Origin: Ruminiclostridium cellulolyticum H10
GTDB taxonomy: Bacteria; Bacillota; Clostridia; Acetivibrionales; DSM-1351
NCBI RefSeq assembly: GCF_000022065.1
Contig: NC_011898.1
Span: 1,200,001 to 1,264,000 of the forward strand
DNA length: 64,000 bases
Reading direction: 5' to 3'
Shown: piece by piece, positions 1,141 to 18,409 of the stretch
Numbering within the stretch: position 1 is the stretch's first letter
Layout: each line of letters opens with the position of its first letter
Notes under the pieces: model-generated
What the model was told of the DNA's origin: nothing
The model's database searches: none
The model's input: only the letters and a program-made list of their open reading frames with translations
Made by a program: the position numbers and the translations under genes

Positions 1141-4100
1141 GAGTTATTTAATTTTAAAGAAATGAGTTATATAGCTCCTAGAAATTCTTTGGAAGAAATG
1201 GTTGCATGTATAGTTTCCGGTGTTCTTAATATAGAGAAAGTGGGTATTTACGACAACTTTTTTGATCTTGGAGGACATTCATTACTTGCAACACAAGTAA
1301 TCTCACGTATAAGAAGGGAATTCAGTATAGATATATCATTACAAAGTTTTTTTGAAAAACCAAATATTGTGAACTTAGTAGAATTAATACAAAATTCCCT
1401 TGAAATGAGTAATTATGGAAAAGGTAGAACTATACAAAGGGTATCAAGAGATACAGCTTTACCACTATCTTTTGCACAACAGAGGATATGGTTCTTGGAA
1501 CAGCTTGAACCGGCTAGCTCAACCTATAATATACCAATGGCAGTAGGGCTGCACGGGAGTCTTAACACAGAAGCACTTGAGCAAAGCTTGAATGAAATTA
1601 TAAAACGCCACGAGGTGATGCGTACCACCTTTAGAGAAGTGAATGAACAGCTTGTACAGGTTATTGCTCCTGAGCTTATTATAAAGCTGAATATAGAGAG
1701 CTTTGAACATATAGATCAAGCAATAAGAGAGGAAAAAGCATTACAGTATATTCGTGAACAAGCATGTGTACCATTTAAATTATCAGAAGGATATCTGTTC
1801 CACTTAAACTTAGTAAAAATAGACAAAGAATATTATATTTTACTATTAGTTTTACATCATGCTATTTCTGACGGTTGGTCTAAGGGAGTACTTGTAAGGG
1901 AATTGACAGATTTATACCAGTTCCATTCATCCGGAAAGCCTTCAATGTTAAAGGAGCTAAACATACAGTATGCTGACTACGCCGTTTGGCAAAGAGAGTG
2001 GCTTCAAGGGGAAGTGCTTAAGAAACAATTGGATTATTGGAAGGAAAAGCTGGGCGGGCGATTACCTGTTCTGGAGCTTCCCTATGACCATACAAGGCCT
2101 GCTGTACAGTCCTTCAAGGGTAAAACATATGATTTACAGCTATCCAGACAACTTTCTGATTCTTTAAGGGTACTGTCACGTAAAGAGGGATGTACTCTTT
2201 TCATGCTTCTGCTTTCAGCGTTTCAGGTAATGCTTTATCTCTACACAGGAGAAGAGGACATCCCCATTGGTTCACCTATAGCAGGAAGAAATACCTCCGA
2301 TACTGAGGACTTAATAGGCTTTTTTATAAATACATTGGTTTTTAGAGGGGATTTATCAGGAGATCCATCATATAGCCAGCTAATAAGAAGGATTAAGGAA
2401 ACTTCACTTGAAGCCTATGCTCATCAGGATATACCATTTGACAGAATTGTAGAAGAATTAAAACCAAGTCGTGATTTGAGCAGGCAGCCATTGTTCCAGA
2501 TTATGCTGATACTTCAGAATACACCTATGGATGAAGTGAAGCTGGATGATATAAGTATAAATTCTATTCAGGTAGAAAGTGGAACCTCAAAATTCGATTT
2601 GACACTGGAATTATATGATGATGATGAAATATGGGGTTGGTTTGAGTACAGTACAGACCTGTTTGAAGAAAGTACTGTAGAGCGTATGACTAAGCATTTT
2701 ATAAAGCTGCTTGAGGGAATAGTCCAAAATCCCAAGGAGAGGATTTCTAAGATTCCTCTTATGGGGGAAGATGAAAAAACACTTGTACTAGAGGCTTGGA
2801 ACAGAACCGAGAGAGATTATCCCAATGAATGTATTCATACTATGTTTGAAAAGCAGGCCAAGGCTGCTCCAGATGCCTGTGCCATAATGTATCGTGGAGA
2901 ACACTATACTTATGGTCAGCTTGACAGTCTATCAAGCCGTATTGCAAATTACCTTGTCAAGCAGGGGCTACATACCGGTGAACCTGTAGGTGTTTCAATA
3001 GAACGCTCACCTGAGGCGGTAGCCTGTATACTGGGAATCCTTAAAGCGGGTGGAGCGTATGTGCCACTGGATCCCTCTTATCCTAAAGAGCGTATAGCTT
3101 TTATGCTGGAGGATTCGGGGCTAAAGCTTGTACTTACCAAAAAGGACATATTGAAGGGCGTAGAAACTAACGCCGTTATGCTATGTATAGATGAATGTAT
3201 GCAGCAGATCAGTGAGGAAAGTGATGATAGTCCCGAAAACAAAGCTGATAGCGGAAGTGTTGCATATATAATTTATACTTCAGGCTCAACTGGTAAGCCA
3301 AAGGGAGTACAGGGACTACACAAGGGAATAATAAACCGTTGTAACTGGATGTGGAGGACATATCCTTATAAAGAGGAAGAAATTTGCTGCCAGAAGACTG
3401 CGTTAAGCTTTGTAGATTCAATCTGTGAAATATTCAGTCCTCTCTTAAAGGGTATCAGGCTTGTAATTATTCCGGATGAGACATTGCTGGATGTACAGCA
3501 TTTTGTAGATGAGCTTTCAGTAAGCAGAATTAGCAGAATAGTCCTTGTTCCTTCGCTGCTTCAGGCGATGCTGGATACGGTACCTGATATAGGAAAAAAG
3601 CTTTCTGAGCTAAAGCTATGGGTTACAAGCGGAGAAACCCTGAGAATTGAGCTTATGAAAAGGTTCAAGCAGAGTATACCCAATGGCAGACTTATTAATA
3701 TATACGGTTCTTCAGAGGTATCGGCAGATGCAACCTACTACGATACTGCTCTAGCAAGTGAAACATTGTCAAGAGTGCCCATAGGAAGACCAATAGATAA
3801 TACTGAGATATACATACTTGACAGTAACAAGCAGCTAGTCCCTATTGGTGTTGCAGGAGAATTGTATGTTGCAGGAGACGGGTTGGCAAAGGGCTACTTA
3901 AATCGTCCAGAGCTTACCAAAGAAAGGTTTGTTCCAAACCCATATGATACCTCTGGCTTGATGTATAGAATGGGAGATATGGCAAGGTATTTGCCTGATG
4001 GCAATATAGAGTACCTGGGAAGAGGAGACAATCAAGTAAAGATAAGGGGTATACGTGTAGAATCAGGTGAAATAGAGAGTGTACTGTTAAAGTTTCCTTC

Positions 4101-4671
4101 TGTTAAGGAGGCAGTGGTTGTAAGCTACGGAGAGGCAAAGGGAGATGTAAGGCTAGCAGCATATATAGTTCCAAACGTAACGGTACCGGAAGTTGATGAA
4201 CTGAGGAGCTTTATTAGAGGATATCTGTCGGAATACATGATACCTGCAAGTATAAACTTTGTTGAACATATGCCTTTATTACCAAACGGCAAGATTGATA
4301 AGAAGAGTTTGCCTAATCCGGAGTTGCTAAAAGGTCAATTGGAATTTACTCCTCCCTGTTCAGAGATAGAAAAAGAAATAGCTCAGATGTGGAATGAAGT
4401 ATTGGGAGTAAAAGAATCAGGGATTAATAATAGCTTTTTTGACATGGGTGGACACTCACTTATGGCTACGCAATTAATATCAAGGATACGCTTAAAATTT
4501 GGAGTAGATTTGCAACTTAAAAGTTTTTTTAGTTCGCCTACAATCAAGAGTATTGCAAAATCAGTAGAAGACCAAATTTTAATGGATGCAAGCAGTGATC
4601 AAATAAATGATGTACTTAATCTGCTTGAGGAGCTTAGTGAAGAAGATATTTTAAATATGCTTGATTACTAA
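1..4671 (+). CDS. Nonribosomal peptide synthetase, 5'-truncated (A-PCP-C-A-PCP)
   Basis: The frame is open from base 1, so the gene starts upstream of the window. Counting codons from base 1, the order is: an adenylation (A) domain entered before its A3 motif YTSGSTGRPKG and ending at LPNGKIDKK; a carrier domain (LGGHS, Ser427); a condensation domain with intact HHAISDG (His619/His620); a second complete A domain (A3 YTSGSTGKPKG); and a carrier domain (GGHS, Ser1486). The tail LLEELSEEDILNML may be a docking helix. Aligned by eye to GrsA-PheA, both A domains give V235 D236 C239 V278 V299 S301 I322 A330 D331 K517. Asp235, which normally binds the alpha-amino group, is replaced by Val with Asp one position later, as in beta-alanine-activating domains (recalled code VDWVISLADK). 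I infer two successive beta-alanine residues. The two A domains are about 98% identical in DNA. Core A8 of the second reads RVESGEIE, where Leu is usual. Confidence 0.93.
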   Translation, partial: LCIDECMQQISEESDDSPENKADSGSVAYIIYTSGSTGRPKGVQGLHKGIINRCNWMWRTYPYKEEEICCQKTALSFVDSICEIFSPLLKGIRLVIIPDETLLDVQHFVDELSVSRISRIVLVPSLLQAMLDTVPDIGKKLSELKLWVTSGETLRIELMKRFKQSIPNGRLINIYGSSEVSADVTYYDTALASETLSRVPIGRPIDNTEIYILDSNKQPVPIGVAGELYVAGDGLAKGYLNRPELTEERFVPNPYDTSGLMYRMGDMARYLPDGNIEYLGRGDNQVKIRGIRVELGEIESVLLKFPSVKEAVVVSYGELKGDVRLAAYIVPDVTVPEVDELRSFIRGYLPEYMIPVSINFVEHIPLLPNGKIDKKSLPDPELFNFKEMSYIAPRNSLEEMVACIVSGVLNIEKVGIYDNFFDLGGHSLLATQVISRIRREFSIDISLQSFFEKPNIVNLVELIQNSLEMSNYGKGRTIQRVSRDTALPLSFAQQRIWFLEQLEPASSTYNIPMAVGLHGSLNTEALEQSLNEIIKRHEVMRTTFREVNEQLVQVIAPELIIKLNIESFEHIDQAIREEKALQYIREQACVPFKLSEGYLFHLNLVKIDKEYYILLLVLHHAISDGWSKGVLVRELTDLYQFHSSGKPSMLKELNIQYADYAVWQREWLQGEVLKKQLDYWKEKLGGRLPVLELPYDHTRPAVQSFKGKTYDLQLSRQLSDSLRVLSRKEGCTLFMLLLSAFQVMLYLYTGEEDIPIGSPIAGRNTSDTEDLIGFFINTLVFRGDLSGDPSYSQLIRRIKETSLEAYAHQDIPFDRIVEELKPSRDLSRQPLFQIMLILQNTPMDEVKLDDISINSIQVESGTSKFDLTLELYDDDEIWGWFEYSTDLFEESTVERMTKHFIKLLEGIVQNPKERISKIPLMGEDEKTLVLEAWNRTERDYPNECIHTMFEKQAKAAPDACAIMYRGEHYTYGQLDSLSSRIANYLVKQGLHTGEPVGVSIERSPEAVACILGILKAGGAYVPLDPSYPKERIAFMLEDSGLKLVLTKKDILKGVETNAVMLCIDECMQQISEESDDSPENKADSGSVAYIIYTSGSTGKPKGVQGLHKGIINRCNWMWRTYPYKEEEICCQKTALSFVDSICEIFSPLLKGIRLVIIPDETLLDVQHFVDELSVSRISRIVLVPSLLQAMLDTVPDIGKKLSELKLWVTSGETLRIELMKRFKQSIPNGRLINIYGSSEVSADATYYDTALASETLSRVPIGRPIDNTEIYILDSNKQLVPIGVAGELYVAGDGLAKGYLNRPELTKERFVPNPYDTSGLMYRMGDMARYLPDGNIEYLGRGDNQVKIRGIRVESGEIESVLLKFPSVKEAVVVSYGEAKGDVRLAAYIVPNVTVPEVDELRSFIRGYLSEYMIPASINFVEHMPLLPNGKIDKKSLPNPELLKGQLEFTPPCSEIEKEIAQMWNEVLGVKESGINNSFFDMGGHSLMATQLISRIRLKFGVDLQLKSFFSSPTIKSIAKSVEDQILMDASSDQINDVLNLLEELSEEDILNMLDY
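3181..4320 (+). repeat. Direct repeat copy 2: adenylation-domain duplication
   Basis: Second copy of the repeat at 1-1140. Differences cluster in the 3' half (about 14 of 20 fall after 3840), so the 5' half was homogenised more recently or is under stronger constraint. The carrier domains after the two copies are clearly different in sequence, so only the A domain was copied or converted, not the whole module. Confidence 0.95.
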
Positions 4672-4711
4672 CAGCAAGCAAGATGTTATTAAATCCGGGA
4701 AGGTGATATAT

Positions 4712-6337
4712 ATGGAGCTGACATTTAACCCGCAAAATTTTTCTCCAGAGGAAACGCAAAGCGGTGAAACAAAAAAAGAAATACTTGATCTGTTTTCCGT
4801 AACAGATAGTAGTTTGTTGAAGGCTAGAAATGAAACAGATAGAAGGGTTTCAGAAGTAATAAATGAATTTATAGGTGGAAGTGAAGTAAGCACCGATGTC
4901 AGGTTAAATGATTTGCTGACAAACTTTTGTAAAAGCGAAATACCTGATAAACCGTTAAATGTGGACGAGTACATTGCATTTTTTAACAAAAATATAATAC
5001 GTCATTCTACGCGTACTTCTTCACCCAGATATATAGGGCACATGACTTCGGCACTTCCTTATTTCATTAAGCCACTTGCTGGCTTAATCGTTACACTCAA
5101 TCAGAACGTTGTAAAAGCAGAAACAGCAAAGGTGCTAACTCCATACGAACGTCAAGTAATCGCTATGTTGCATAGGGCAATTTATCAATTTGATTCGGAT
5201 TTCTATAATCATCACATTCAAAATAGGGAAAGTGTGCTGGGAATACTGACCTCAGGAGGGACTATAGCAAACCTTACAGCATTATGGTGTGCCCGTAATA
5301 GTGCGTTAGGCCCGTGTGAAGGCTTTAATGGAGTAGAAAAGGAAGGTATGGATGCAGCTCTGAAATTTTATGGGTACAAGGATGCTGTTATTATAGGCTC
5401 TGCTATGATGCATTATTCCTTTGAGAAAGCTGCAGATCTACTGGGTATAGGGTCTAATAACAGCATCAAGATACCTGTAGATAAAAATAATCATATAGAT
5501 TTATCTGAATTACGTAAAACTGTGGAGGAATGCCATAGGAAAAGAAGGCTTATCATAGCCATAATAGCTAATGCAGGTACAACGGACTGTGGTGCAATAG
5601 ATCCAATAGAGAGAGTTGCTGAAATTGCTTATAAAGAAGGATGCCACTTCCATGTTGACGCTGCATGGGGAGGACCCCTTTTATTTTCTGACAAGTATAG
5701 AAATAGGCTTAAGGGAATTGAACTGGCAGACTCAGTCACAATTGACGGACATAAACAGCTTTATCTTCCCATGGGATTGGGGATGATTTTTATGCGTAAT
5801 CCACAGGCCGCAAAAAGCATTGAAAAAAATTCAAACTATATAATACGACGGGGGTCAATAGATCTTGGAAGGAGATCCCTTGAGGGCTCAAGGCCTGCTA
5901 TGTCAATATACTTACATGCGGCCCTCAATATAATAGCAAAGGGCGGGTATGAATTTCTTATAAATGAAGGCATAAAAAAGGCTGAATATATGGCGGGTCT
6001 AATTAAATCAATGAGGGAATTTGAGCTGCTTACAGAGCCTGATATGAATATGCTCCTATATCGCTTTATTCCTGAACGATTAAGAGGTAAAGCTGCGGAT
6101 CACATGCTTGATGATGCTGATAACGAAGTAATTAATAAATACAATGAACAACTTCAGAAGTTACAGCGCAATGGGGGGTATTCCTTTGTATCCCGTACAT
6201 CTTTTAGTTCAGAATTGTATCAAAACAAATCCCTTGTAGCTTTACGAGCAGTACTGGCAAATCCTCTTACTTGTGAAGCTAATATAAATGAGGTTATCAA
6301 CGATCAGCTAAATATAGCAAAACGTTTAAATTTATAA
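4712..6337 (+). CDS. panP: PLP-dependent decarboxylase, PanP-like (aspartate 1-decarboxylase)
   Basis: This is a 541-residue group II PLP decarboxylase. The pyridoxal lysine is K348 in DGHKQLYLP, preceded by the cofactor-binding HVDAAWGGP. The N-terminal part (SPRYIGHMTSALPYF, then ALNQN-like and ETAK segments) resembles the PanP family of pyridoxal aspartate 1-decarboxylases, which convert L-aspartate to beta-alanine; length also fits. The ATG at 4712 is preceded by GAAGGTG at good spacing. An upstream TTG at 4661 overlapping the NRPS stop is less likely. The position between two NRPS genes, directly after A domains with a beta-alanine-like code, suggests dedicated precursor supply. Alternatives in the same fold are glutamate or 2,4-diaminobutyrate decarboxylase; the latter would give diaminopropane. 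The family call is firm; the substrate is inferred. Confidence 0.85.
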   Translation: MELTFNPQNFSPEETQSGETKKEILDLFSVTDSSLLKARNETDRRVSEVINEFIGGSEVSTDVRLNDLLTNFCKSEIPDKPLNVDEYIAFFNKNIIRHSTRTSSPRYIGHMTSALPYFIKPLAGLIVTLNQNVVKAETAKVLTPYERQVIAMLHRAIYQFDSDFYNHHIQNRESVLGILTSGGTIANLTALWCARNSALGPCEGFNGVEKEGMDAALKFYGYKDAVIIGSAMMHYSFEKAADLLGIGSNNSIKIPVDKNNHIDLSELRKTVEECHRKRRLIIAIIANAGTTDCGAIDPIERVAEIAYKEGCHFHVDAAWGGPLLFSDKYRNRLKGIELADSVTIDGHKQLYLPMGLGMIFMRNPQAAKSIEKNSNYIIRRGSIDLGRRSLEGSRPAMSIYLHAALNIIAKGGYEFLINEGIKKAEYMAGLIKSMREFELLTEPDMNMLLYRFIPERLRGKAADHMLDDADNEVINKYNEQLQKLQRNGGYSFVSRTSFSSELYQNKSLVALRAVLANPLTCEANINEVINDQLNIAKRLNL

Positions 6338-6381: not shown

Positions 6382-9300
6382 ATGTCTGATAATAGATTGG
6401 AAATAATTAAACAGCTTTCGCCGGCAAAGAGGGAACTACTTATTAAGAAGCTTCGGAAAGAGGTTACAGAGAAAAAAGATCAGGGAATACCCAGATATAC
6501 CGGAGATAAACCTGCTCCGCTTTCGTTTTCTCAAGAGAGAATGTGGTTTCTGAATGAACTACAGCCTGATAATCCAGCATACAACATATTTTTTGCTGCA
6601 AGGATTAAAGGCATTCTGGAAATACCAGTACTACAAAAAAGCATAGATGAAATTATAAAGCACCATGAAGCTATGAGGATAGTAATTGGACTATCAGATG
6701 GAAAGCCTGTGCTTATAGAGACTCCGGCATTTAGTGTACCAATAAATTTTATAGATATAACAGATGTTGAACAGGAACTGCAAGAATCAACGATCAGAAT
6801 ACTTGCAACTGAGGAGGCCCAAAAAACCTTTGACCTTACAAAGAGTCCTCTTTTTAGTTTCACGCTTCTAAAGCAAAGTGAAAAAGAAAATGTTTTGTTC
6901 ATAAAAATGCATCATATTATATCAGATGGTTGGTCAATGCGTCTGTTTGTAAAAGAAATGTCAGAGTTATACGAAGGCTATAAGAACGGAAATCCTGTTA
7001 TACTACCTGAACTACCCATACAATATAGAGACTTTTCTTACTGGCAGCGAAATCGGCTAAAGGATAATTTAATGGAATCCCAAATGTTATATTGGAAGCA
7101 ACAACTTGGTAATTGTTCACATATACTGGAACTTCCAACGGATCATCCTCGTCCTATTTCTCAACGTTTTAAGGGAGCAATAAAAAGGTTTTCACTTTCA
7201 CCACAATTGGGGGAAACCATAAGGGAGCTTTGCAAAAGGGAGGGTGTCACTCTTTTTATGACATTGATATCTGCCTTTTATACACTGCTTTACCGTTATA
7301 CTTATCAGGAGGAAATAGTAGTTGGAACACCTATTGCTAATCGTAATTATTTTGAGACTGAAAGACTTATAGGTTGCTTTGTAAATACATTGGCTCTACG
7401 TACAGAACTGAATGGAGAAGATACGTTTAAGGAACTGTTATTACGTGTCCGTAATGTATGCCTTGGTGCTTACGCCAATCAGGATATGCCTTTTGACAAA
7501 TTGGTAGAGGTACTTCATCCTCAGAGAGACTTAAGCAGACAACCGATATTTCAGGTTATGTTTATTTTACAAAACACGCAAATTAACAAAATTGTACAGA
7601 GTGATTTTGATATAAGCCCAATACAGGTTGACAGTGGGGTAGCAAAGTTTGACCTTACTTTGGAGCTTTATGATGAGGATATAATAAATGGTTGGTTTGA
7701 GTATAATACAGACCTTTTTAATGAAGATACCATTGAGCGAATGATAGGACATTTAAAAAACATATTGGAAGGAGTAGTCAAGAACGTAGAACAACGTATA
7801 GCTGACATTGATATATTAGGCGAGAAAGAGCGTAGTATGCTACTGGAAGAATGGAACAATACAGAGTATGATTATCCGGAAAAACTCTGCCTGCATCAAC
7901 AATTCGAGAAGCAAGCAGAAAAGAACCCTGATGGGATTGCTGTAATATTTGAAGAACAACAGCTTACATATAAGGAATTAAACCTGCGTGTAAATCAACT
8001 GGCACACTATTTACGTAGGTTGGGGGTGGGACCTGACACCATTGTAGGAGTTCTGATGGATCGTTCCTTAGAGAGTGCAATAGCATTGGAGGGTATTCTC
8101 AAAGCAGGTGGAGCATATTTGCCATTTGATACCGATTGTCCTAAAGAACGTCTCACATTTATGCTTGAAGACGCACAGGTACCTATATTGGTTACTCAGG
8201 AAAGGCATATTGAAGCACTCAAAGATATAAATACAATAAAAATATGCATAGATGCCAATTATAATGAAATCTCAAAAGAAAGCATTGAAAACCCCGTTAA
8301 TATTGCATCAATGAATAATCTCGCTTATGTAATTTATACATCGGGTTCTACAGGTAAGCCAAAGGGTGCAAAGCTGCCGCATCTTGCATTGTTCAATAGA
8401 ATCAAGTGGGCACAGGGTAATTATAAATTAAATGCTACAGATCGGGTTTTACAAAAAACTCCTATGACCTTTGATGTATCTGTATGGGAATATTTCTGGC
8501 CTCTGGCTGTTGGTGCAGGCTTAGTTATGGCTCGTCCCGGAGGTCATAAGGACAGTGCATATCTGGTAGATGTGATTTCTGAGAAGAAAGTTACTACTAT
8601 ACAGTTTGTACCATCTATGCTAAGAGCATTCCTTGAAGAAAATGAAATTAAAAAAGCAAATTGTCTAAGAAGGGTTATCTCAGGGGGAGAAGCTTTATCA
8701 GTTGAGCTTCATGATAGATTTTTTGAAAAGCTTGATGTAGAACTACATAATCAATATGGTCCGACAGAAGCTGCCATTGATGTAACCTACTGGAAATGTT
8801 ATAAGGGGTGTAAACGGCATACTATACCTATTGGACATCCTCTGGCAAATACAAAGTTATACATACTTGATAAATATTTTAATCCGGTACCGATTGGAGT
8901 GCCGGGAGAATTACATATTTGTGGTGATGGACTTGCATCCGGATATCTAAACAGACCCGAGCTCACAAATGAGAAATTTATATCAAACCCTTTTAGTGAT
9001 AAACATGGGGGTAGACTGTATAAAACAGGTGATTTAGTTCGGTATGCCAATGATGGAAGCATTGAATTTATAGGTAGAATAGACCATCAGGTAAAAATAC
9101 GAGGTTTAAGAATAGAACTGGGAGAGATTGAAGCAATGCTGCTTCAGCATCCTGATGTACATGCATCTGCTGTAATTGTATGGGAAGGCTCAGAAGATGT
9201 AAAACGCCTTGTGGCTTACATTGTTATGGAAAGTGGAAAAGAGTTTAATACTACTGAATTGAGAAGCTATCTAAAGGCTAAACTTCCGGATTACATGGTC

Positions 9301-12300
9301 CCGGCAGTACTTATGAATATTGACGCCCTCCCTCTTACTACCAGTGGCAAGTTAGATAAAAGAGGACTACCGGCAGTTGATTTTTCAAGGGATATGATGG
9401 AACAACCCTTTGCGGCTCCAAGAAATCATGTGGAAGAAACGCTTGCAGGAATATGGGCCGATATACTTAAGCTTGAAGAGGTGGGTATACACGATAGATT
9501 CTTTGAATTAGGGGGAGACTCTATTCTAAGCATACAGGTGGTCGCTAGAGCTCGTCAGTCTGGCATATACATAACTCCAAAACAAATTTTTGAACATCAA
9601 ACAATTGAGGAACTAGCACAAGTGGTAAATACAGAAAAACTTGTTCACTCAGAAGAAGGACTAGTCACAGGAAGAGTGCCGCTCACTCCAGTTCAGCATT
9701 ACTTTTTTGAGCAGAAGCTGGAACAGGCTCATCATTTTAATCAGGCGGTTATACTTGAGGTTGAGGCTGGAGTTAGTTCTTGTATGGTGGAAAATGCGAT
9801 TCAGCAGCTCCTTATACATCACGATGCTCTCAGAATGACAGTTGAGAATCCCGATAGCGGTTGGGGAGAAATCGAAAGGGAGCCTGATTATTCAAGATAT
9901 TATACAGTGCTTGACCTTTCCACACTAAGTGTGGGAGAACAGAAAAAGGAATTACTGAAAGTTTCTTCAGAAATGCAGGCAAGCCTTGATTTAGCAAAAG
10001 GCTCCATATTTAAGGCTGTATATTTTAATATGGGGGCTGAACAGTTGGCAAGGCTGGTAATTATAATTCATCACCTGGTTGTAGACGGAATTTCATGGAG
10101 AGTATTGCTTGAAGATTTACAGACCTTATGTAAGTCAAACAGTTTACCCCAAAAAACCACATCCCTTAAATACTGGGCTGAAAAGCTTGCATCATATGCA
10201 CAATCAACAGATATTGAGAAACACCTAAGCTATTGGCAGTCCTTGTCTGAAGTTAGTTTGCCTGCTTTACCAAGTGACTTTGAGGCGAATTATGATATGA
10301 ATACCGAAGGAGAAAAGCAAACGATATCGGTATTTCTTGGGAGTGGTGAAACAAAGGCACTTCTGGATGAAGTACCTGCAGTTTACCATACACAGATAAA
10401 CGATATCTTGCTCACAGCATTGACTCAGGCATTTGCAGAATGGTCTGGTCAGAATCGTTTGTTGGTTGACCTTGAAGGACATGGTAGAGAAGATATCTTT
10501 ACAGATGTTGATATATCAAGGACAGTAGGCTGGTTTACTACTATATTTCCTGTTTTATTGGATTTTGGTAACAGCGGGGATATAGGGGAAAAAATAGTTA
10601 AAGTAAAGGAAACACTTAGGGAGATACCCTGTGGAGGGTTGACTTATGGTTTACTCAAGTACTTAGGCAAGTATAAAAAGCAATTAAGTAAGATACCTAA
10701 AGGAAGTATACTTTTCAATTACTTAGGTCAATTTGATCAGATTACAAATGAAGATTCTCTATTTAAAGTAATTCAAGAGCCAATTGGGACGACTAGAGGT
10801 GAAAAGAACCTTAGAAGTCACCTTTTAGAAGTAAATGCTCTCATTGGTGGAGGGGTTTTACAAGTAGACTGGGAATTCAGCCGAAAAATATTCAATAAAA
10901 AAACTGTAGAGAAGCTTGCAAAGGGCTTTATAAAGGCATTGGAAGGAATTATTCAATACTGCAAAACAGCTCAAACAAGGTATACGCCATCAGACTTTCC
11001 TATGTCTGGGCTTACTCAGCAAAAGCTCAATGAGATAGTTGGAAATAACATAGAAATTGAGAACATATATCCGCTGGCACCAATGCAGCAGGCTGTATTA
11101 TCATATAACCTGTTTTCAGTTAGCTCGGGTACAAATATACAGCAGCTTTCATGGCTGATTGAAGGTGATTTGGATATTGATCTATTTAAAACCGCTTGGC
11201 AGAAAGTTGTTGATAAATATGCCATACTTAGGACTTCTTTTATATGGAAAAAGCTTAAGAAGCCTCTTCAAGTAGTTTTCCGTTCATTAAGATTGTCATT
11301 TGAAGAGGCTGACTGGAGTCAACTGCCTTCTAAACAGAAGGAACAGGCACTGGCTGACTATATGGAGGGAAACCGTAAGCGTGGTTTTAAAGTATCGGAA
11401 GCTCCCCTTATGTGCTGCTTTATCGCCTGCTTGGGAAAAGGGGTATACAGATTTGTATGGAGTTACTGGACTTCTCTATTTGATAACTGGAGTTGGGCGA
11501 ACATAATAAAAGAAGCATTCCAAAACTATAAGCTTCTATCTGAGGGTAATAATCTACCAGCTATAAGCAGCTCTCCTTTCTCAAGCTATATTCAATGGAT
11601 AATGCAACAGGACGAAGCACAGGCAGCTGACTTCTGGCGAAATGAGCTCAAAGGTTTTAATTCTTCTATGGATATAGGGATTGAGCGACGTACACAGGAT
11701 TATTTAAATAAAAGTTTTGATGCTGGTGAAGTTGAGGTTGGTTTTACTGAAGAAGAAACGAAGCTGCTTACAGCTTTTATCAGGAAGTATAGCATAACTC
11801 TTGGCTCGCTTTTACAGGGGGCATGGGTGCTTCTCTTGTCGCAGTATAGTGGTCAAGAGGACATTCTATACGGAGTATTAACCTATGGACGACCGGCATC
11901 ACTTAAGGATGTAGATTCTATGGTAGGATTGTTTTCAAATAATTTACCTGTACGAGTAAGGGTAGAAAAAGACGTCAATATTGTAGATTGGCTAAGAGAT
12001 ATTCAGGACAAGCAGGTAGTACTTCGTCAGTATGACTATGTAACTGTTCAACAAATTGCAAAGTGGAGTCTTGTACCACTTAGTGTTTTACAAAGAGCAA
12101 TATATGATAGAACATTTATATTTGTAAAAGCTCCAGAGGAAGACTTTTTTTCACAGCAGAGTGAAGATAGTGTAAGACTAAGTCAATATCAAAATACATT
12201 GCAATTAAATATACCTTTGAGGCTATACGCAGAGCCATCAAACAAGATTTTAATAAGGGCAAAATATGATAGTGCAACTTTTAGTGGTGAAGACATTCAA

Positions 12301-12402
12301 AGTATGCTTAGATCCATGAAACAATTATTAGGAAAAATGAGCTCAAGTCCAGATGTGAAACTTTATGACCTTATAAAGAATAAACATGATACAGAACTAT
12401 AA
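6382..12402 (+). CDS. Nonribosomal peptide synthetase (C-A-PCP-E-C*)
   Basis: This 2006-residue protein starts with a short helical leader that may dock to the preceding synthetase. Domains: condensation (about 40-470, MHHIISDGWS at His176); adenylation (about 490-990, YTSGSTGKPKG near 652); carrier with LGGDS (Ser1047), the form typical before epimerases; epimerization (about 1095-1530) with HHLVVDGISW near 1230, EGHGRE and NYLGQFDQ; and a C-terminal condensation-like domain (about 1560-2000). In that last domain HHxxxDG reads WTSLFDN (W1696, T1697, D1701, N1702), so both histidines, including the catalytic one, are gone. By eye the A-domain code is D-V-W-Q-I-G-Q-I-D-K, nearest among those I recall to glutamine (DAWQFGLIDK). 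The residue would be made D. There is no thioesterase or terminal carrier domain. Confidence 0.94.
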   Translation: MSDNRLEIIKQLSPAKRELLIKKLRKEVTEKKDQGIPRYTGDKPAPLSFSQERMWFLNELQPDNPAYNIFFAARIKGILEIPVLQKSIDEIIKHHEAMRIVIGLSDGKPVLIETPAFSVPINFIDITDVEQELQESTIRILATEEAQKTFDLTKSPLFSFTLLKQSEKENVLFIKMHHIISDGWSMRLFVKEMSELYEGYKNGNPVILPELPIQYRDFSYWQRNRLKDNLMESQMLYWKQQLGNCSHILELPTDHPRPISQRFKGAIKRFSLSPQLGETIRELCKREGVTLFMTLISAFYTLLYRYTYQEEIVVGTPIANRNYFETERLIGCFVNTLALRTELNGEDTFKELLLRVRNVCLGAYANQDMPFDKLVEVLHPQRDLSRQPIFQVMFILQNTQINKIVQSDFDISPIQVDSGVAKFDLTLELYDEDIINGWFEYNTDLFNEDTIERMIGHLKNILEGVVKNVEQRIADIDILGEKERSMLLEEWNNTEYDYPEKLCLHQQFEKQAEKNPDGIAVIFEEQQLTYKELNLRVNQLAHYLRRLGVGPDTIVGVLMDRSLESAIALEGILKAGGAYLPFDTDCPKERLTFMLEDAQVPILVTQERHIEALKDINTIKICIDANYNEISKESIENPVNIASMNNLAYVIYTSGSTGKPKGAKLPHLALFNRIKWAQGNYKLNATDRVLQKTPMTFDVSVWEYFWPLAVGAGLVMARPGGHKDSAYLVDVISEKKVTTIQFVPSMLRAFLEENEIKKANCLRRVISGGEALSVELHDRFFEKLDVELHNQYGPTEAAIDVTYWKCYKGCKRHTIPIGHPLANTKLYILDKYFNPVPIGVPGELHICGDGLASGYLNRPELTNEKFISNPFSDKHGGRLYKTGDLVRYANDGSIEFIGRIDHQVKIRGLRIELGEIEAMLLQHPDVHASAVIVWEGSEDVKRLVAYIVMESGKEFNTTELRSYLKAKLPDYMVPAVLMNIDALPLTTSGKLDKRGLPAVDFSRDMMEQPFAAPRNHVEETLAGIWADILKLEEVGIHDRFFELGGDSILSIQVVARARQSGIYITPKQIFEHQTIEELAQVVNTEKLVHSEEGLVTGRVPLTPVQHYFFEQKLEQAHHFNQAVILEVEAGVSSCMVENAIQQLLIHHDALRMTVENPDSGWGEIEREPDYSRYYTVLDLSTLSVGEQKKELLKVSSEMQASLDLAKGSIFKAVYFNMGAEQLARLVIIIHHLVVDGISWRVLLEDLQTLCKSNSLPQKTTSLKYWAEKLASYAQSTDIEKHLSYWQSLSEVSLPALPSDFEANYDMNTEGEKQTISVFLGSGETKALLDEVPAVYHTQINDILLTALTQAFAEWSGQNRLLVDLEGHGREDIFTDVDISRTVGWFTTIFPVLLDFGNSGDIGEKIVKVKETLREIPCGGLTYGLLKYLGKYKKQLSKIPKGSILFNYLGQFDQITNEDSLFKVIQEPIGTTRGEKNLRSHLLEVNALIGGGVLQVDWEFSRKIFNKKTVEKLAKGFIKALEGIIQYCKTAQTRYTPSDFPMSGLTQQKLNEIVGNNIEIENIYPLAPMQQAVLSYNLFSVSSGTNIQQLSWLIEGDLDIDLFKTAWQKVVDKYAILRTSFIWKKLKKPLQVVFRSLRLSFEEADWSQLPSKQKEQALADYMEGNRKRGFKVSEAPLMCCFIACLGKGVYRFVWSYWTSLFDNWSWANIIKEAFQNYKLLSEGNNLPAISSSPFSSYIQWIMQQDEAQAADFWRNELKGFNSSMDIGIERRTQDYLNKSFDAGEVEVGFTEEETKLLTAFIRKYSITLGSLLQGAWVLLLSQYSGQEDILYGVLTYGRPASLKDVDSMVGLFSNNLPVRVRVEKDVNIVDWLRDIQDKQVVLRQYDYVTVQQIAKWSLVPLSVLQRAIYDRTFIFVKAPEEDFFSQQSEDSVRLSQYQNTLQLNIPLRLYAEPSNKILIRAKYDSATFSGEDIQSMLRSMKQLLGKMSSSPDVKLYDLIKNKHDTEL

Positions 12403-12421: not shown

Positions 12422-13750
12422 ATGCTTATCGATGATATCATGGGCAAGATATGGGAAAAAAATTATACTCAATACAAAAAAATTTATGATGATGCTATAG
12501 AAACAGATACAAATAAACTGTTTAAAATACTTTCCGAACAGAAAATGGGTATTATTAATTACCCTGGCGTAACTATGAATTTATTGGCTACAAGTGGCTG
12601 CCCTCACAGGTTTAGGGAGGATAGAATGTCAGGTTGTAGTATGTGCAACTACCAGTCTAACTTTTTAAGCTCAAATGCTGCAATGGCAGCACTAAGGGAA
12701 AAAGATATAAACCTATATGCAAAAGCCGTACGTCTAAGTTTTGAAAATGCGAGAGGTGTTATGTCCAAGGCAAATGCATTTGAATTGATTTCTGCAAATG
12801 ACACTCTCAATCAGAAAGAGTTTCCGACCGAAGCTTTCGAAGAATTATTTAGTAAAAATGACCTGTTTGTTAGAAAACCCTATAAATATATTATGGAAAC
12901 GAGGGCTTCGAGTGTAACTAAAGAAAGCATAGAAATTCTAAAAAAGTACATTGGTGAAAAATCAAGGGTATTAATAGAGTTTGGAATAGAAGCTGGAGAT
13001 GAATGGGTTAGAAACCATTGGATAAATAAGAATATAACCGATGAAGAAATAAAAACGGCAATAGCACTGATACATGAAGCTGGTTTCAAGGTTTCTGTTG
13101 ATATAATTATTGGCATTCCCGGATTAACTGAGCAGCAATCTATTGATATATTCAGACAAACAGTTGATTGGGCTGATAAATTATTGGCAGATGAAATAAT
13201 ATGTTTACCATTAAATAGAAAGGAGGGAACAATTCAGGGGTTTCTGTACAGTGAGCTCAAAGACAACCAAAAGCTAAGTGAGGTTGGGTTAGTTAATGGA
13301 GAACACACTGGGCTTCCGTGGTTATTCTCAGTATTGGATGCAGTTTTCTATGTTGCTAAAGAGAGTCCACATGCAATAGATAAGCTAAACTTTGCACAAT
13401 TAAGTACCAGCCAAAACCTTATAGAAAATACCATGTCATACAACAAAGAATTGGGTTGCTCATGTTCGCAATTAATAATAGAAGCTCTGGAACGATTCAG
13501 AAGGGATAAGAATGTTAACGCACTGGGAGAAGTCAGAGAAATTATAAAAAATGATTCCTGCTATGGGGAGTATACCGACTTATTAGAAAAGCAGAAAGGT
13601 GCTGGAGATATTCCAGCCACAATTAATCTTATTATTGGAGAAGTTGCAAAAAAACTTTGGCCTGAAAGCTGGGAGGAAAAAATAAGCAGCTTTGAGAAGG
13701 AATTAGCACTTTATAAAGGCAATAACAAAAAAAATATATGGAGGGATTAG
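12422..13750 (+). CDS. Radical SAM protein with atypical CX11CX2C cluster motif
   Basis: This is a 442-residue protein. Three cysteines, C60, C72 and C75 (GCP...SGCSMCNY), have spacing CX11CX2C instead of the usual CX3CX2C. The GC...GCxMCxY form recalls the Elp3/archaeosine-type branch of radical SAM enzymes, where the first spacing is long. Downstream, EFGIEAGDEWVRNHWINKN and a GFKVSVDIIIGIPGLT strand fit the later part of a radical SAM barrel. The start is the ATG at 12422 after AAAGGAG; an earlier in-frame ATG at 12386 overlaps the NRPS and has no ribosome site. It is one base short of the next gene, implying coupled translation with the PP-loop protein. The reaction is unknown. A peptide or carrier-bound substrate is a guess from context. 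Confidence 0.8.
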   Translation: MLIDDIMGKIWEKNYTQYKKIYDDAIETDTNKLFKILSEQKMGIINYPGVTMNLLATSGCPHRFREDRMSGCSMCNYQSNFLSSNAAMAALREKDINLYAKAVRLSFENARGVMSKANAFELISANDTLNQKEFPTEAFEELFSKNDLFVRKPYKYIMETRASSVTKESIEILKKYIGEKSRVLIEFGIEAGDEWVRNHWINKNITDEEIKTAIALIHEAGFKVSVDIIIGIPGLTEQQSIDIFRQTVDWADKLLADEIICLPLNRKEGTIQGFLYSELKDNQKLSEVGLVNGEHTGLPWLFSVLDAVFYVAKESPHAIDKLNFAQLSTSQNLIENTMSYNKELGCSCSQLIIEALERFRRDKNVNALGEVREIIKNDSCYGEYTDLLEKQKGAGDIPATINLIIGEVAKKLWPESWEEKISSFEKELALYKGNNKKNIWRD

Positions 13751-13751
13751 T

Positions 13752-14741
13752 ATGACTACACAAGAAAAGAAGACCAATAACGTATATCGAGAAAAAATTC
13801 TTAATTCGGTTCTGGAGAAATATTATAATCCGGATTCAAAATATGATTACTGTGTACTTTTCAGCGGTGGAAAGGACAGCACATATTTAGCAAATATAAT
13901 GAAACAAATGAAGGGAGGAAGGGTATGTACACTTACTGTTGATAATGGATTTGAGGATGAAGTTTTCCTTGACCATGTAAAAAAGGTAGCAGATAAAATA
14001 GGTGTTGATAGCTATATCATTACTCCACCGAAAGAAGATTTTGAATTACTTTTTAACTATGTCATAAAAGAGCCAAAGTTAAGAGCGGTTGATTCAAACG
14101 CAATATGTTATTTCTGTGGGCAGTACATAATGAAAGCTGGCATACGATTTGCTGAAGAAAATAATATACCAGTTGTTATTCATGGGATGTCTCCCACTCA
14201 ATATAACCTCCCAGATAAGCTTGAGAATGAAGAGGTAAGCGAGCAAGCTTTTATAAGAAATATAGAATTGCTTGAAATGTATCGTAATAAAAACATACAG
14301 GATGTATATAAACTGGCCAAGACGCTATACAGATATAATAACGACCCACAAATAAAAGAAATAATGGATAAAACCTTTTATCAATCTAAAAAGGTAAAAA
14401 TGATAATACCTTTCCAATATCTCGATTATAATGTTGAAAATATTAAAAGTATTATTGAGAAGGAGTTGGACTGGGTTAATATGTTCGGATATTCAAATAG
14501 TCTTTATATCTCATCAGGATGTCGAATGTTTGAAATATTTTTGCTTATGGAAAAAAAGATACCAGGCTTCCGTGTACACGAGCATAGGGAATTTGCACAA
14601 GATTTTAATAAAGGTCATGTAACAAAAAAAGCCTATGATTATGCTCTTGATGTAGCTAAAACATTACAGGATCAAGAAGAGATATCGCCTACAATGCATA
14701 GCCTGATAAAGAGAATTGGTCTTGAAGAGGAACTTTTATAA
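13752..14741 (+). CDS. PP-loop ATP pyrophosphatase (AANH superfamily)
   Basis: This 329-residue protein has a PP-loop, FSGGKDSTYL (SGGKDS at residues 38-43), which binds ATP in the adenine nucleotide alpha-hydrolase fold. It also has a CX2C pair (C119, C122) in a region like those of QueC and sugar amidotransferases of the WbpG/PseA group. These enzymes adenylate a carbonyl and let ammonia or sulfide attack. In the closthioamide pathway of Ruminiclostridium cellulolyticum an AANH protein (CtaC) makes thioamides on carrier-bound substrates. Here the gene sits between a radical SAM gene and a stand-alone carrier in an NRPS cluster, so amidation or thioamidation of a carrier-bound intermediate is plausible but inferred. 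It starts at the ATG after GGAGGGATTAGT. Confidence 0.82.
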   Translation: MTTQEKKTNNVYREKILNSVLEKYYNPDSKYDYCVLFSGGKDSTYLANIMKQMKGGRVCTLTVDNGFEDEVFLDHVKKVADKIGVDSYIITPPKEDFELLFNYVIKEPKLRAVDSNAICYFCGQYIMKAGIRFAEENNIPVVIHGMSPTQYNLPDKLENEEVSEQAFIRNIELLEMYRNKNIQDVYKLAKTLYRYNNDPQIKEIMDKTFYQSKKVKMIIPFQYLDYNVENIKSIIEKELDWVNMFGYSNSLYISSGCRMFEIFLLMEKKIPGFRVHEHREFAQDFNKGHVTKKAYDYALDVAKTLQDQEEISPTMHSLIKRIGLEEELL

Positions 14742-14768: not shown

Positions 14769-15017
14769 ATGCAAAATTTGAATATTGCAAGGATAAGAGA
14801 ACTGTTGAAGGAAACTATGGAAATGGAAGGGGATATAGATACAGTGTCTCCAGATGAGGATTTAACCAATATTGGAATGAATTCGGTATCATTTATACAG
14901 GTAATAGTTGCTTTTGAAGAAGAGTTTGAAATACAGTTTGAGGAAGAAGATCTTGATATTGAACACTTCCGCACAATAAACAGCATACTGGAATTTTTGA
15001 AAACTAAAACTAATTAG
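14769..15017 (+). CDS. Stand-alone acyl/peptidyl carrier protein
   Basis: This is an 82-residue acidic helical protein with the phosphopantetheine site motif GMNSVSF (Ser near residue 40), a normal length for a discrete carrier protein. A strong GGAGG lies before the ATG. It follows the radical SAM and PP-loop genes with short gaps. It differs clearly from the second carrier at 15901 (GFVNSLF), which has the hallmark of hydroxymalonyl/methoxymalonyl carriers. I therefore infer that this one serves the radical SAM/PP-loop pair or receives the chain from the NRPS, but that is not proved by sequence. Confidence 0.9.
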   Translation: MQNLNIARIRELLKETMEMEGDIDTVSPDEDLTNIGMNSVSFIQVIVAFEEEFEIQFEEEDLDIEHFRTINSILEFLKTKTN

Positions 15018-15027
15018 AGGTAAAAAC

Positions 15028-15873
15028 ATGAAAAGAATAGGTGTTGTTGGTGCCGGAGTTATGGGTATTGGGGTAGCACAGAATTTTGCCCAAAAAGGAT
15101 ATCCAGTTACTCTGGTAGATATCAATAAGGACATATTAAAACATGCAGAAAGTGAAATACGTAACAATATACGTTTTTACAGTTTATTCAATAAAAGTGA
15201 GAAGCTTGAGGATGCTGATACAATTATAGCAAGGATAAATTTTACGGTAGAACTTCAGGAACTAGAAGCTTCAGACTTCGTAGTAGAAAATATAACTGAA
15301 AAATGGGAAGAAAAAAAGGAAGTGTATGAAAAACTTGCTTTGATATGCTCTGAATTATGTATATTATTGGTAAACACTTCATGTATACCAATAACTAGAA
15401 TAGCGGCATTAACCAAAAATCCTGATAGAGTGATAGGTACTCATTTTATGAACCCTGTACCTATGAAAACTGTAATTGAAATTATAAGAGGTTACCACAC
15501 TTGTGAAGAAACAATTGAAGCAACAAAAGATCTGCTGAGGGGAATAGGTAAGGAGTGTATCATTGTAAATGATTTGCCGGGATTTGTGTCAAATAGGATT
15601 TCCCATTTATATATGAATGAGGCAGCATTTGTTGTACAGGATCAGGTTGCAAGTCCTGAAGCAGTAGATGATATATTTAAAAAATGCTATGGACATAAAA
15701 TGGGGCCTCTTGAAACGGCTGACCTTATAGGACTTGATACGGTGGTAAATTCTCTAAATGCTCTTTATGAAAGCTTTCAGGACACTAAGTTTCGATGCTG
15801 TCCATTGCTAAGTAAAATGGTAGATGCGGGGCTGTTAGGCAGAAAATCCGGAAGGGGTTTCTATGAATACTAG
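15028..15873 (+). CDS. 3-hydroxyacyl-CoA dehydrogenase family protein (FkbK/ZmaG-like)
   Basis: This is a 281-residue NAD-dependent dehydrogenase with an N-terminal Rossmann motif, IGVVGAGVMGIGVA, and the family features GTHFMNPVP and NDLPGFVSNRI. Length matches 3-hydroxybutyryl-CoA dehydrogenases. With the following ACP, acyl-CoA dehydrogenase and FkbH-like genes it makes the known set that turns 1,3-bisphosphoglycerate into hydroxymalonyl-ACP. In that pathway this enzyme oxidises the C3 alcohol of glyceryl-ACP to the aldehyde. The ribosome site is GAGG. The role is taken from the zwittermicin and FK520 pathways. Confidence 0.88.
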   Translation: MKRIGVVGAGVMGIGVAQNFAQKGYPVTLVDINKDILKHAESEIRNNIRFYSLFNKSEKLEDADTIIARINFTVELQELEASDFVVENITEKWEEKKEVYEKLALICSELCILLVNTSCIPITRIAALTKNPDRVIGTHFMNPVPMKTVIEIIRGYHTCEETIEATKDLLRGIGKECIIVNDLPGFVSNRISHLYMNEAAFVVQDQVASPEAVDDIFKKCYGHKMGPLETADLIGLDTVVNSLNALYESFQDTKFRCCPLLSKMVDAGLLGRKSGRGFYEY

Positions 15874-16163: not shown

Positions 16164-17300
16164 ATGATAATAGAATTAACGCCTGAACAGCTTAAGTATC
16201 AGGAAGAAGTCAAGACATTCGTAGATACTGTAATAAAACCGATGGCACAACAAAATGATAGAGAAGAACAGATGCCCGCAGAACTCATTAAAAAGATTGG
16301 GGAGAATGGACACTTAGGCTCTGTTATCGCTAAAGAATACGGTGGACAGGAACTTGATATGATATCCATTGGACTATTGAATGAAGAGTTCGGTCGTGGA
16401 TGCTCTTCTGCTAGGAGCTTACTTACAGTTCATGGGATGGTAGCTCTTGCGATTGATAGGTGGGGTACTCAAGAACAGAGAAATTACTGGCTGCCTAGAA
16501 TGTCTAAGGGGCATATAATAGGGGCATTTGGCTTAACTGAACCAAATGTAGGCTCTGATGCTAAAAGCATAGAGACTACAGCAGTTCTAAACGGAGATTG
16601 CTATGTACTGAATGGGAAAAAAAAGTGGATTACTATGGGGCAAGTTGCAGATGTTTTCCTAATTTTTGCTCGGTGTGAGGATAAGCCTACAGCATTTCTT
16701 GTTAACAGAGATACTTCTGGCTTTTCAACTAAGCCTATAAAGGGTTTAATGGGTGCAAGGGCCTCTATGGTTGCAGAGTTGATAATGGAAGACTGTCATA
16801 TTCCTAAAGAGAATATAGTAGGGAGAGTTGGTACGGGACTATCACATGTTGGACTAAACAGTCTTGATTATGGCAGGTATACTATAGCATGGGGATGCGT
16901 CGGATTGGGAGAAGCATGTCTTGAAGAGAGCGTGCGTTATTCAAGAAAAAGAAAGCAGTTTGGACAGCCATTAAGACAAAACCAGCTAATACAGAAGATG
17001 GTAACAGAAATGTCAGTGAATATTAAAGCTGCGAGGCTTCTATGCCTCAATGCTGGCTATCTAAAGGATATTGGAGATCCTGACACAATAATGGAAACAT
17101 GGAATGCAAAATACTTTGCAGCAAAAATGGTAGTTAAGGTGGCAAGTGATGCAGTACAGATTCATGGAGCTAAAGGGTGTTGCAATGAATATCCCGTAGA
17201 AAGATACTATAGGGATTCCAAAATTAATGAAATAATAGAAGGAACAACTCAGATGCATGAGCTGCTGATTGCTACAAATGTATTTAGAAATATCAGATAA
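16164..17300 (+). CDS. Acyl-CoA dehydrogenase family flavoprotein (FkbI/ZmaE-like)
   Basis: This is a 378-residue FAD-dependent acyl-CoA dehydrogenase. Visible features are AFGLTEPNVGSD in the middle domain, the FAD-binding RKQFGQPL, and the C-terminal YRDSKINEIIEGTTQ where the catalytic base normally sits. In hydroxymalonyl/methoxymalonyl-ACP pathways this protein oxidises the aldehyde on the ACP to the carboxylate. Its cassette neighbours support that role over general fatty-acid oxidation. AAGGAAGG precedes the ATG. Confidence 0.9.
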   Translation: MIIELTPEQLKYQEEVKTFVDTVIKPMAQQNDREEQMPAELIKKIGENGHLGSVIAKEYGGQELDMISIGLLNEEFGRGCSSARSLLTVHGMVALAIDRWGTQEQRNYWLPRMSKGHIIGAFGLTEPNVGSDAKSIETTAVLNGDCYVLNGKKKWITMGQVADVFLIFARCEDKPTAFLVNRDTSGFSTKPIKGLMGARASMVAELIMEDCHIPKENIVGRVGTGLSHVGLNSLDYGRYTIAWGCVGLGEACLEESVRYSRKRKQFGQPLRQNQLIQKMVTEMSVNIKAARLLCLNAGYLKDIGDPDTIMETWNAKYFAAKMVVKVASDAVQIHGAKGCCNEYPVERYYRDSKINEIIEGTTQMHELLIATNVFRNIR

Positions 17301-17356: not shown

Positions 17357-18409
17357 ATGAAAGAACTTGATTGTAGGGGAACGAAAGTAAAATGCGTTGT
17401 ATGGGATCTAGATAATACAGTATGGGACGGAGTTTTACTTGAAGATGGAAATGTTAATTTATTTAACGAGGTTGCATCAATTATAAAGACCTTGGATAGC
17501 AGGGGTATACTCCAATCAATAGCGAGCAAAAACGACTACGATTTAGCATTAGCTAAGTTAGAAGAATTTGGCCTAAGGGAATACTTTATCTATCCTCAGA
17601 TTAACTGGAATTCAAAATCATTTTCCATTAAGGAAATTGCAAAAGCTATTAATATCGGAGTTGATACACTGGCTTTTATAGATGATCAACAGTTTGAACT
17701 AGAAGAAGTTAAGTTTGCTGTGCCAGAGGTGTTTTGTATAGATGCATCTAATTTAGGTAATTTGCTGGATATCCCTGAGATGAATCCAGTTTTTATAACA
17801 GAGGATTCTAAAAATAGGAGGCTTATGTATGTAAGTGATATTGAGCGAAATAAGCTGGAGGATGAATTTGAAGGACCTAAAGAAGAGTTCCTTGCTTCTC
17901 TGAATATGTCATTTACAATTATGCATGTACAGGAGGGAGACTTGCAGCGTGCCGAAGAACTTACAGTCAGAACACATCAGTTAAACACAACAGGGTATAC
18001 ATACTCCTACGAGGAGTTAGATAGTTTTCGAAAATCTAATAAACATAAATTATTGATAGCAAGTCTTGAGGATAAATTCGGTACATATGGGAAAATAGGA
18101 CTTGCTTTGGTAGAATGTAATGATGATGAATGGATATTGAAGATGCTTCTAATGTCTTGTAGAGTTATGTCCAGAGGTGTAGGAACTATAATGATAAATT
18201 ATGTTGCAGAACAGGCTAAAAAGGCTGGAGTACGGATGCTGGCTGAATTTATACCAAACGATAGGAATAGGATGATGTATATAACATATAAATTCGCAGG
18301 CTTTCAAGAAATTCAGGAAAAAAATGGGCTTTGTATTCTGGAAAAGGACACCAATGAAATACCACCATATCCAGACTATATCCGAGTTGTTAAAGAGGAT
18401 ATAGCTTAA
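17357..18409 (+). CDS. FkbH-like HAD-superfamily glyceryl-ACP synthase
   Basis: This 350-residue protein has an N-terminal HAD domain with motif WDLDNTVWDG (D17, D19), a FIDDQQFELEEV motif near residues 100-112, and a C-terminal GNAT-like half (about 180-335) containing LLMSCRVMSRGVG. This two-part layout is diagnostic of FkbH proteins, which dephosphorylate 1,3-bisphosphoglycerate and load glycerate onto an ACP. It is the last gene of the natural-product operon, ending before a strong terminator. No O-methyltransferase follows, so the unit would stay as hydroxymalonyl unless a methyltransferase lies elsewhere. Confidence 0.92.
   Translation: MKELDCRGTKVKCVVWDLDNTVWDGVLLEDGNVNLFNEVASIIKTLDSRGILQSIASKNDYDLALAKLEEFGLREYFIYPQINWNSKSFSIKEIAKAINIGVDTLAFIDDQQFELEEVKFAVPEVFCIDASNLGNLLDIPEMNPVFITEDSKNRRLMYVSDIERNKLEDEFEGPKEEFLASLNMSFTIMHVQEGDLQRAEELTVRTHQLNTTGYTYSYEELDSFRKSNKHKLLIASLEDKFGTYGKIGLALVECNDDEWILKMLLMSCRVMSRGVGTIMINYVAEQAKKAGVRMLAEFIPNDRNRMMYITYKFAGFQEIQEKNGLCILEKDTNEIPPYPDYIRVVKEDIA

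Follow-up and report, generated by a model that had tools for sequence, protein, structure and literature searches.

A conserved clade of terminal, histidine-less condensation domains that includes the last domain of a Ruminiclostridium cellulolyticum H10 assembly line, and its possible role in chain release

We analysed a window of 64,000 nucleotides from Ruminiclostridium cellulolyticum H10 (NC_011898.1, positions 1,200,001-1,264,000 of a genome that forms one contig of 4,068,724 bases). It contains the last megasynthase gene of a biosynthetic cluster, which encodes a nonribosomal peptide synthetase (NRPS) whose final condensation (C) domain, here called C*, has WTSLFDN in place of HHxxxDG. 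Judged by its sequence, C* belongs to a conserved condensation subtype, terminal and histidine-less, that descends from D-to-L (DCL) domains. We give about an even chance to the proposal that it is a catalytic domain that would release the finished chain, and this reading is favoured over that of a non-catalytic platform for other proteins. The domains of the NRPS, in which A, T and E denote adenylation, carrier and epimerization, are as follows.

6382-12402, forward strand: NRPS with the order C-A-T-E-C*, 2006 residues (P0001), the cluster's last megasynthase gene (open reading frame, Pfam and NCBIfam)
6514-7845, forward strand: first C domain with an intact HHIISDG motif (PF00668, residues 45-488)
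7903-9351, forward strand: A domain with the code DVWQIGQID and no confident substrate (Pfam, residues 508-990; code read-out)
9439-9624, forward strand: T domain (PF00550, residues 1020-1081)
9690-11028, forward strand: E domain with HHLVVDG, limits approximate (TIGR01720 above cut-off; motif)
11029-12399, forward strand: terminal C* domain, DCL-derived and histidine-less (Pfam, alignment, trees)
11467-11487, forward strand: WTSLFDN replacing HHxxxDG (residues W1696-N1702)

In this protein Pfam recognised three stretches of the Condensation type and one each of the AMP-binding and PP-binding types. The middle Condensation-type stretch is an E domain, because it exceeds the cut-off of TIGR01720 (residues 1401-1552, 143.7 bits compared to a cut-off of 74.2 in NCBIfam) and carries HHLVVDG at residue 1230; it is the sole match to TIGR01720, and C* does not match. 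The translation bears out the replaced motif, its coordinates and the C-domain landmarks that the initial annotation had read from the letters: YPLAPMQQ and VGLFSNNLPVRV are both present in C*, and in W1696-T-S-L-F-D-N1702 both histidines and the glycine are exchanged and the aspartate is retained. Elsewhere in the protein the catalytic motifs are preserved. As had also been claimed, nothing follows C* in the protein, since the stop codon lies directly after it at 12400-12402. The gene had been called the second NRPS; more precisely, it is the final megasynthase gene of a cluster whose start lies ≈50 kb before the window.

A close orthologue of C* was found in none of 11 genomes of the genus (which also made up the family-level search), where the best match was 31% identical (genome G004), and a single-domain scan of genome contigs returned no relative. 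Wider searches extended to 58 genomes of the order, 391 of the class and 398 of the phylum, to genome contigs with a four-row alignment, to 295 genomes of the Paenibacillus monticola family, and to 26 genomes of the genus Brevibacillus. Loci were picked by similarity to C*, so that the counts of terminal and non-terminal domains describe a non-random sample. Together these searches gave a clade of 15 domains from 15 Bacillota genomes, including this window. In a tree of 120 rows, drawn by a quick method from 152 distinct full-motif domains after short and epimerization-like rows had been removed by rule, the 15 domains form one side of a branch with a Shimodaira-Hasegawa-like approximate likelihood ratio (SH-aLRT) support of 100, and the support was again 100 when 13 columns around the motif were removed. 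This is the C-domain phylogeny by which the initial annotation had suggested its proposal be checked, and it places C* in a single supported clade. The next supported set enclosing C* has 31 rows, DCL-type relatives among them (SH-aLRT 99).

The first histidine is gone in all 15 members and the second in 13. The commonest motif is QNSLFDG (G295, G813, G928, G1130, G814, G1114, G1125, G815 and G816), and LNSLFDG (G004), QNSMFDG (G249) and QNSLIDG (G1044) also occur. Relatives with an intact HHxxxDG at this place would have spoken against the initial annotation; the clade contains none, and two members keep the second histidine only (QHSLIDG in G950 and QHSLFDG in G1109), which implies that the site still accepts histidine. 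Four residues, N1576, S1698, Q1904 (which adjoins a two-residue insertion) and R1947, are each found in 15/15 members, and the same residue occurs in at most 12% of 38 DCL domains. All 38 DCL relatives have HH at the motif columns; they were chosen by locus and HH motif, so this count is a description and no test. The domain is C-terminal in every member, with at most 31 residues left after it, behind such different proteins as C-A-T-E-C* here, KS-ACP-AMT-C* in G004, G249 and G295, KS-AT-KR-ACP-C* in P. monticola and KS-AT-ACP-C* in Brevibacillus formosus. The copy in the window thus lies within the clade, lacks the first histidine, has all four private residues and ends its protein. The strings QNSLFDG, QNSxxDG and QNxxxDG appeared in no paper of the open literature searched; papers outside it may contain them.

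Other departures from HHxxxDG were seen outside this clade. Three domains form a second, independent histidine-less clade (NLMLQDG twice and SYMCLDG; loci L048:13296-16082, L075 and L049) and end C-A-MT-T proteins; two lie at the C-terminus, and behind the remaining one (L048) comes a further acyltransferase-like stretch, which contains HACTDGGG. HNSILDG, with asparagine for the second histidine, occurs in C-type domains of plasmids of Nostoc carneum and Trichormus variabilis (L067 and L069). In tblastn searches of plasmids the matched domains reached at most 36% identity, and the matched domain had HH in all eight plasmid loci retrieved.

The tree and sequence matches in the Protein Data Bank (McyB, PvdL and SrfA-C, whose domains we take to be of the DCL type) place C* among DCL domains. 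It shares with DCL domains (SrfA-C, PvdL C3, McyB, TycB) the lineage, the fold, the place after an E domain and the landmarks C2 and C5, and differs from them in the loss of HH, which is found in 0/15 clade members, in the private Asn, Ser, Gln and Arg residues and the two-residue insertion, and in having no acceptor module after it. The marks of other special classes are absent: C* has neither the HRxxxDD of X domains nor the DxxxxD of Cy domains (Cy-type rows lie elsewhere in the tree), it has GSLLQGAW where CmodAA domains have [K/R]SVLLAAH before C5 (compared by eye), and of the fungal CT motif HxxxDxxS its TSLFDNWS retains the aspartate and serine without the histidine.

The C-domain fold is predicted to be retained. 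An AlphaFold2 model built from a 17-row alignment reached a mean predicted local distance difference test score (pLDDT) of 85.7 and a predicted template modelling score (pTM) of 0.83, so the structural model that the initial annotation had called for shows an intact C-domain fold. The best structural match was the SrfA-C condensation domain (Z 40.6, root-mean-square deviation 3.3, 426 residues aligned); lower in the ranking were AmbE-CmodAA (Z 37.6), the CT domains of TqaA (34.5) and HtmB2 (34.0), and the X domain of teicoplanin synthetase (32.9). Because all these domains share the C fold, such matches cannot choose between functions. The ratio of nonsynonymous to synonymous substitution rates (dN/dS) of C* was 0.12-0.29 in 13 close pairs of relatives, compared to 0.12-0.30 for the 496 codons that precede it in each gene; these pairs were those above 60% identity among 45 possible, and they are not independent. 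Strain-specific decay, which the initial annotation had named as a possible refutation, is contradicted by the clade, the private residues and the purifying selection in relatives, and we rejected it as the origin of the motif.

No partner for an ordinary condensation was evident. Within the cluster, each A-T pair is preceded by a C or Cy domain of its own, so that C* is left without an ordinary acceptor module, and no thioesterase (TE) was found in the cluster's megasynthases by Pfam or by a scan for GxSxG. The clade, the C-terminal position, the conserved motif and private residues, the predicted fold, the selection in relatives, and the lack of any acceptor or TE seen here all support release. 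So do the two members that carry histidine at the second position and genome G1109, which has the block around C* but not several other genes of its relatives (below). We propose that C* would accept the peptidyl thioester in its D configuration from the T domain once the E domain has acted, and that the thioester would be attacked in C* by a nucleophile that no module in cis supplies. The most likely candidate would be a free amine, with an acceptor on a discrete acyl carrier protein (ACP) as the second choice. A hydrogen-bonding side chain, asparagine in most members and threonine here, may take over the positioning role of the second histidine.

Published precedents bear on this mechanism. 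At HHxxxDG, which holds donor and acceptor, the second histidine probably sets the position of the acceptor's amine; losing this histidine does not abolish function in every case, its role is still debated, and chain-releasing C domains have been reported (PMC11546977, the last in section 3.5). Streptothricin ORF18, an HQxxxDM C domain reported to couple an aminoglycoside-type amine to a chain held on a carrier, resembles C* in having an amide side chain for the second histidine and a reported acceptor amine that is not carrier-bound; unlike C*, it is a separate protein and keeps the first histidine, and the likeness is drawn from its published description (PMC11546977). The terminal C domain of glidonin synthetase, C13, is likewise an amide synthase for a free amine, putrescine, but it carries HHxxxDG, and A*-T-TE comes after it (PMC10587159). 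Both histidines are absent from BlmVI/TlmVI/ZbmVI-C2, as from C*, and altered activity is assigned to these C2 domains; they belong to the CmodAA group for conjugate addition, whereas C* is without [K/R]SVLLAAH (PMC11342130). The X domain of glycopeptide synthetases has a C fold and has lost HHxxxDG, but it carries HRxxxDD, is LCL-related and recruits P450 enzymes (PMC11546977, PMC8949500). Paenilamicin PamG is a polyketide synthase (PKS) with a C-terminal C domain, and the start module of its cluster is an Asn-coded C-A-T-E; in contrast to C*, a further NRPS gene, pamH, is listed after it, and the likeness to C* drawn here is one of architecture (PMC4234257).

Several observations weigh against a catalytic release function. 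The second histidine is important in most C domains, including that of glidonin, where the H9721A exchange lowers the yield (PMC10587159). WTSLFDN is the most divergent motif of the clade, and the exchange of glycine for asparagine occurs in this copy alone (1/15). Purifying selection was measured in relatives only, and this copy is without a close orthologue. PKS genes follow the C* gene in B. formosus and HW567, so that C* is perhaps not the last to act there, and gene order is in any case no proof of the order of action.

The genes directly downstream of the NRPS gene are those for which the initial annotation had suggested a docking role of C*, together with three further genes.

12422-13750, forward strand: radical SAM protein with distant similarity to RaSEA, below cut-off (NCBIfam)
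13752-14741, forward strand: PP-loop ATPase, WbuX/QueC-like, below the NCBIfam cut-off
14769-15017, forward strand: discrete ACP with a GMNS motif (NCBIfam; profile search)
15028-15873, forward strand: FkbK-like 3-hydroxyacyl-CoA dehydrogenase (NCBIfam; 51.7% homologue in the P. monticola cluster)
16164-17300, forward strand: FkbI-like acyl-CoA dehydrogenase (NCBIfam; P. monticola comparison)
17357-18409, forward strand: FkbH-domain protein (TIGR01686, 287.3 bits compared to a cut-off of 146.65)

If C* were a non-catalytic platform like the X domain, which in glycopeptide synthetases sits before the TE, it would hold the radical SAM protein, the PP-loop ATPase and the ACP on the T-bound peptide. 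Both histidines are gone, the fold is kept and the X domain is among the structural matches (Z 32.9), and besides the window's own gene, G004, G249 and G295 have radical SAM genes of other types close to C*, as probably does G950, judged by eye, which may point to a partial link between radical SAM proteins and C*. The window's radical SAM protein, however, had no tblastn match in 21 stretches, and an ORF with CxxxCxxC was found in none of the Brevibacillus, P. jilunlii and HW567 stretches, with one implausible antisense match in P. monticola. Moreover, one private residue (S1698) lies inside the active-site motif, and a platform would still require a release of the thioester for which no TE was found. 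We consider the platform unlikely. Of the two alternatives in the initial annotation, non-canonical release has thus fared better, with C* C-terminal in 15/15 members and neither a spare acceptor nor a TE seen; the platform is weak, since the neighbours are inconstant and the ACP stands here among FkbH/I/K-type genes.

A smaller probability attaches to a hand-over, in which C* condenses the chain with the cargo of the discrete ACP or transfers the chain onto it. In 13 of the 14 C* genomes searched, the contig that bears C* also encodes one type of ACP at a distance of 0.1-23 kb (97-118 bits; G1114 was left out of the search), and in G295 and G950 this ACP lies directly downstream of C*. Second ACPs at the same loci scored 84-87 bits and other matches in those genomes at most 82.7 bits. 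However, the ACP model was built from these same loci, with G1125 alone outside it, and similar ACPs (at most 78.5 bits) occur in six genomes without a known C*. The FkbH/I/K-like genes of the window are 40-56% identical to those of P. monticola and, if they belong to the FkbH pathway as we presume, explain the ACP in both clusters as an extender-unit carrier. G1109, furthermore, has C* without such an ACP: it keeps the block around C*, with proteins 71-86% identical to those of B. formosus, and the ACP, a luciferase-like gene, the TE and the following PKS are absent. C* can thus persist without these four, which also speaks against C* as a bridge to the following PKS of B. formosus. G1109 and the Brevibacillus-type loci weaken the case for the ACP and the radical SAM protein as general partners of C*.

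Release by cyclization, in the manner of fungal CT domains and through attack of an internal amine or hydroxyl, would fit the C-terminal position and the structural matches to TqaA CT (Z 34.5) and HtmB2-CT (Z 34.0); we hold it to be improbable, because the histidine of the CT motif is gone, only DxxS being left, and the sequence lineage of C* is DCL, not fungal CT. Decay of this single copy within an otherwise working family is the least probable alternative, and a very improbable one: the unique WTSLFDN with its asparagine and the lack of a close orthologue in the genus would agree with it, but the reading frame is intact, the four strictly private residues are kept and the protein's other catalytic motifs are undamaged.

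The loci compared also showed features of their own. In G1109 (L120:3160-18670) the block around C* comprises five genes, and what remains of the B. formosus-type cluster has given way to other genes, which suggests that the five-gene block is an exchangeable biosynthetic sub-cluster. A dehydroquinase-like gene (AroQ-type, by eye) directly follows the C* gene at four of the five Brevibacillus-type loci (L079, L082, L120 and L122).

The cluster spans 67 kb (≈1,151,326 to 1,218,409). It begins with a C-A-T-E NRPS (1506 residues), a B12 radical SAM protein, sugar-nucleotide genes and a glycosyltransferase, followed by a beta-lactamase-fold protein (514 residues), an NRPS with a split A domain and an acyltransferase. 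The middle is made up of PKS and PKS/NRPS proteins that include aminotransferase and nitroreductase-type (oxidase) domains, and the end consists of a two-module C-A-T NRPS, a PanP-type decarboxylase, the C-A-T-E-C* protein, and the radical SAM, PP-loop, ACP and FkbK/FkbI/FkbH-like genes. Two of these genes precede the C* gene in the window.

1-4671, forward strand: remainder of the upstream NRPS, two C-A-T modules (whole gene 2193 residues), both with the A code VDCVVSIAD
4661-6337, forward strand: PanP-type aspartate decarboxylase (TIGR03799, 617.5 bits compared to a cut-off of 606.1)

We take the A codes to be Asn-like in the C-A-T-E start module, Cys-like in both oxidase-linked A domains and beta-alanine-like for VDCVVSIAD; the split A domain reads DPWMLGTIN, to which no substrate is assigned, and the code pattern missed one A domain of a 3739-residue protein. 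PanP likely supplies beta-alanine to the two preceding modules, so that precursor supply stands beside its use in window positions 1-6337. Since both upstream A domains read the beta-alanine-like code, PanP is a less likely source of an amine for C*. The start NRPS, encoded upstream of the window (L009:11326-15843), has the same nine-letter A code in G249 and P. monticola, where its counterparts are 43-46% identical. With the beta-lactamase-fold protein (L018:6260-7801), which has a hydrophobic C-terminal part, it resembles an acyl-D-Asn prodrug system, presumably like those of the ClbP (colibactin) and zwittermicin types, and relatives of both proteins lie near C* in G249 and P. monticola. 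The A domain encoded at L018:7829-14254 (genome positions 1165829-1172254) appears to be interrupted, between its early and middle motifs, by a radical SAM and then a B12-binding domain. Just upstream of the cluster (L009:4133-11299, genome positions 1144133-1151299), genes for a TerB-domain protein, a BrxC/BrxD-type ATPase and a DEAD-box helicase stand in a row that is perhaps a defence island. Elsewhere in the window, positions 25844-32704 encode a 2286-residue protein with CBM9, fibronectin type III and S-layer homology domains.

It is possible, at somewhat less than even probability, that C* stands for an unrecognised class in which Gln-Asn (here Trp-Thr) and the private Asn/Ser/Gln/Arg set replace the two histidines. 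Such domains would be dedicated chain terminators, coupling free nucleophiles to D-peptidyl, beta-amino-acyl or ketide thioesters where PKS and NRPS lines end in Clostridia, Paenibacillus and Brevibacillus. A natural histidine-less family that keeps its fold, its private residues and its purifying selection offers a ready comparison for the question of the second histidine, all the more so as asparagine and histidine are exchanged between close relatives (QNSLFDG in G1125 and QHSLFDG in G1109). Its sequence signature also marks hybrid assembly lines that end in this unexplained manner; the clusters of several such lines have both a beta-lactamase-fold protein and a start module of the Asn-coded C-A-T-E kind.

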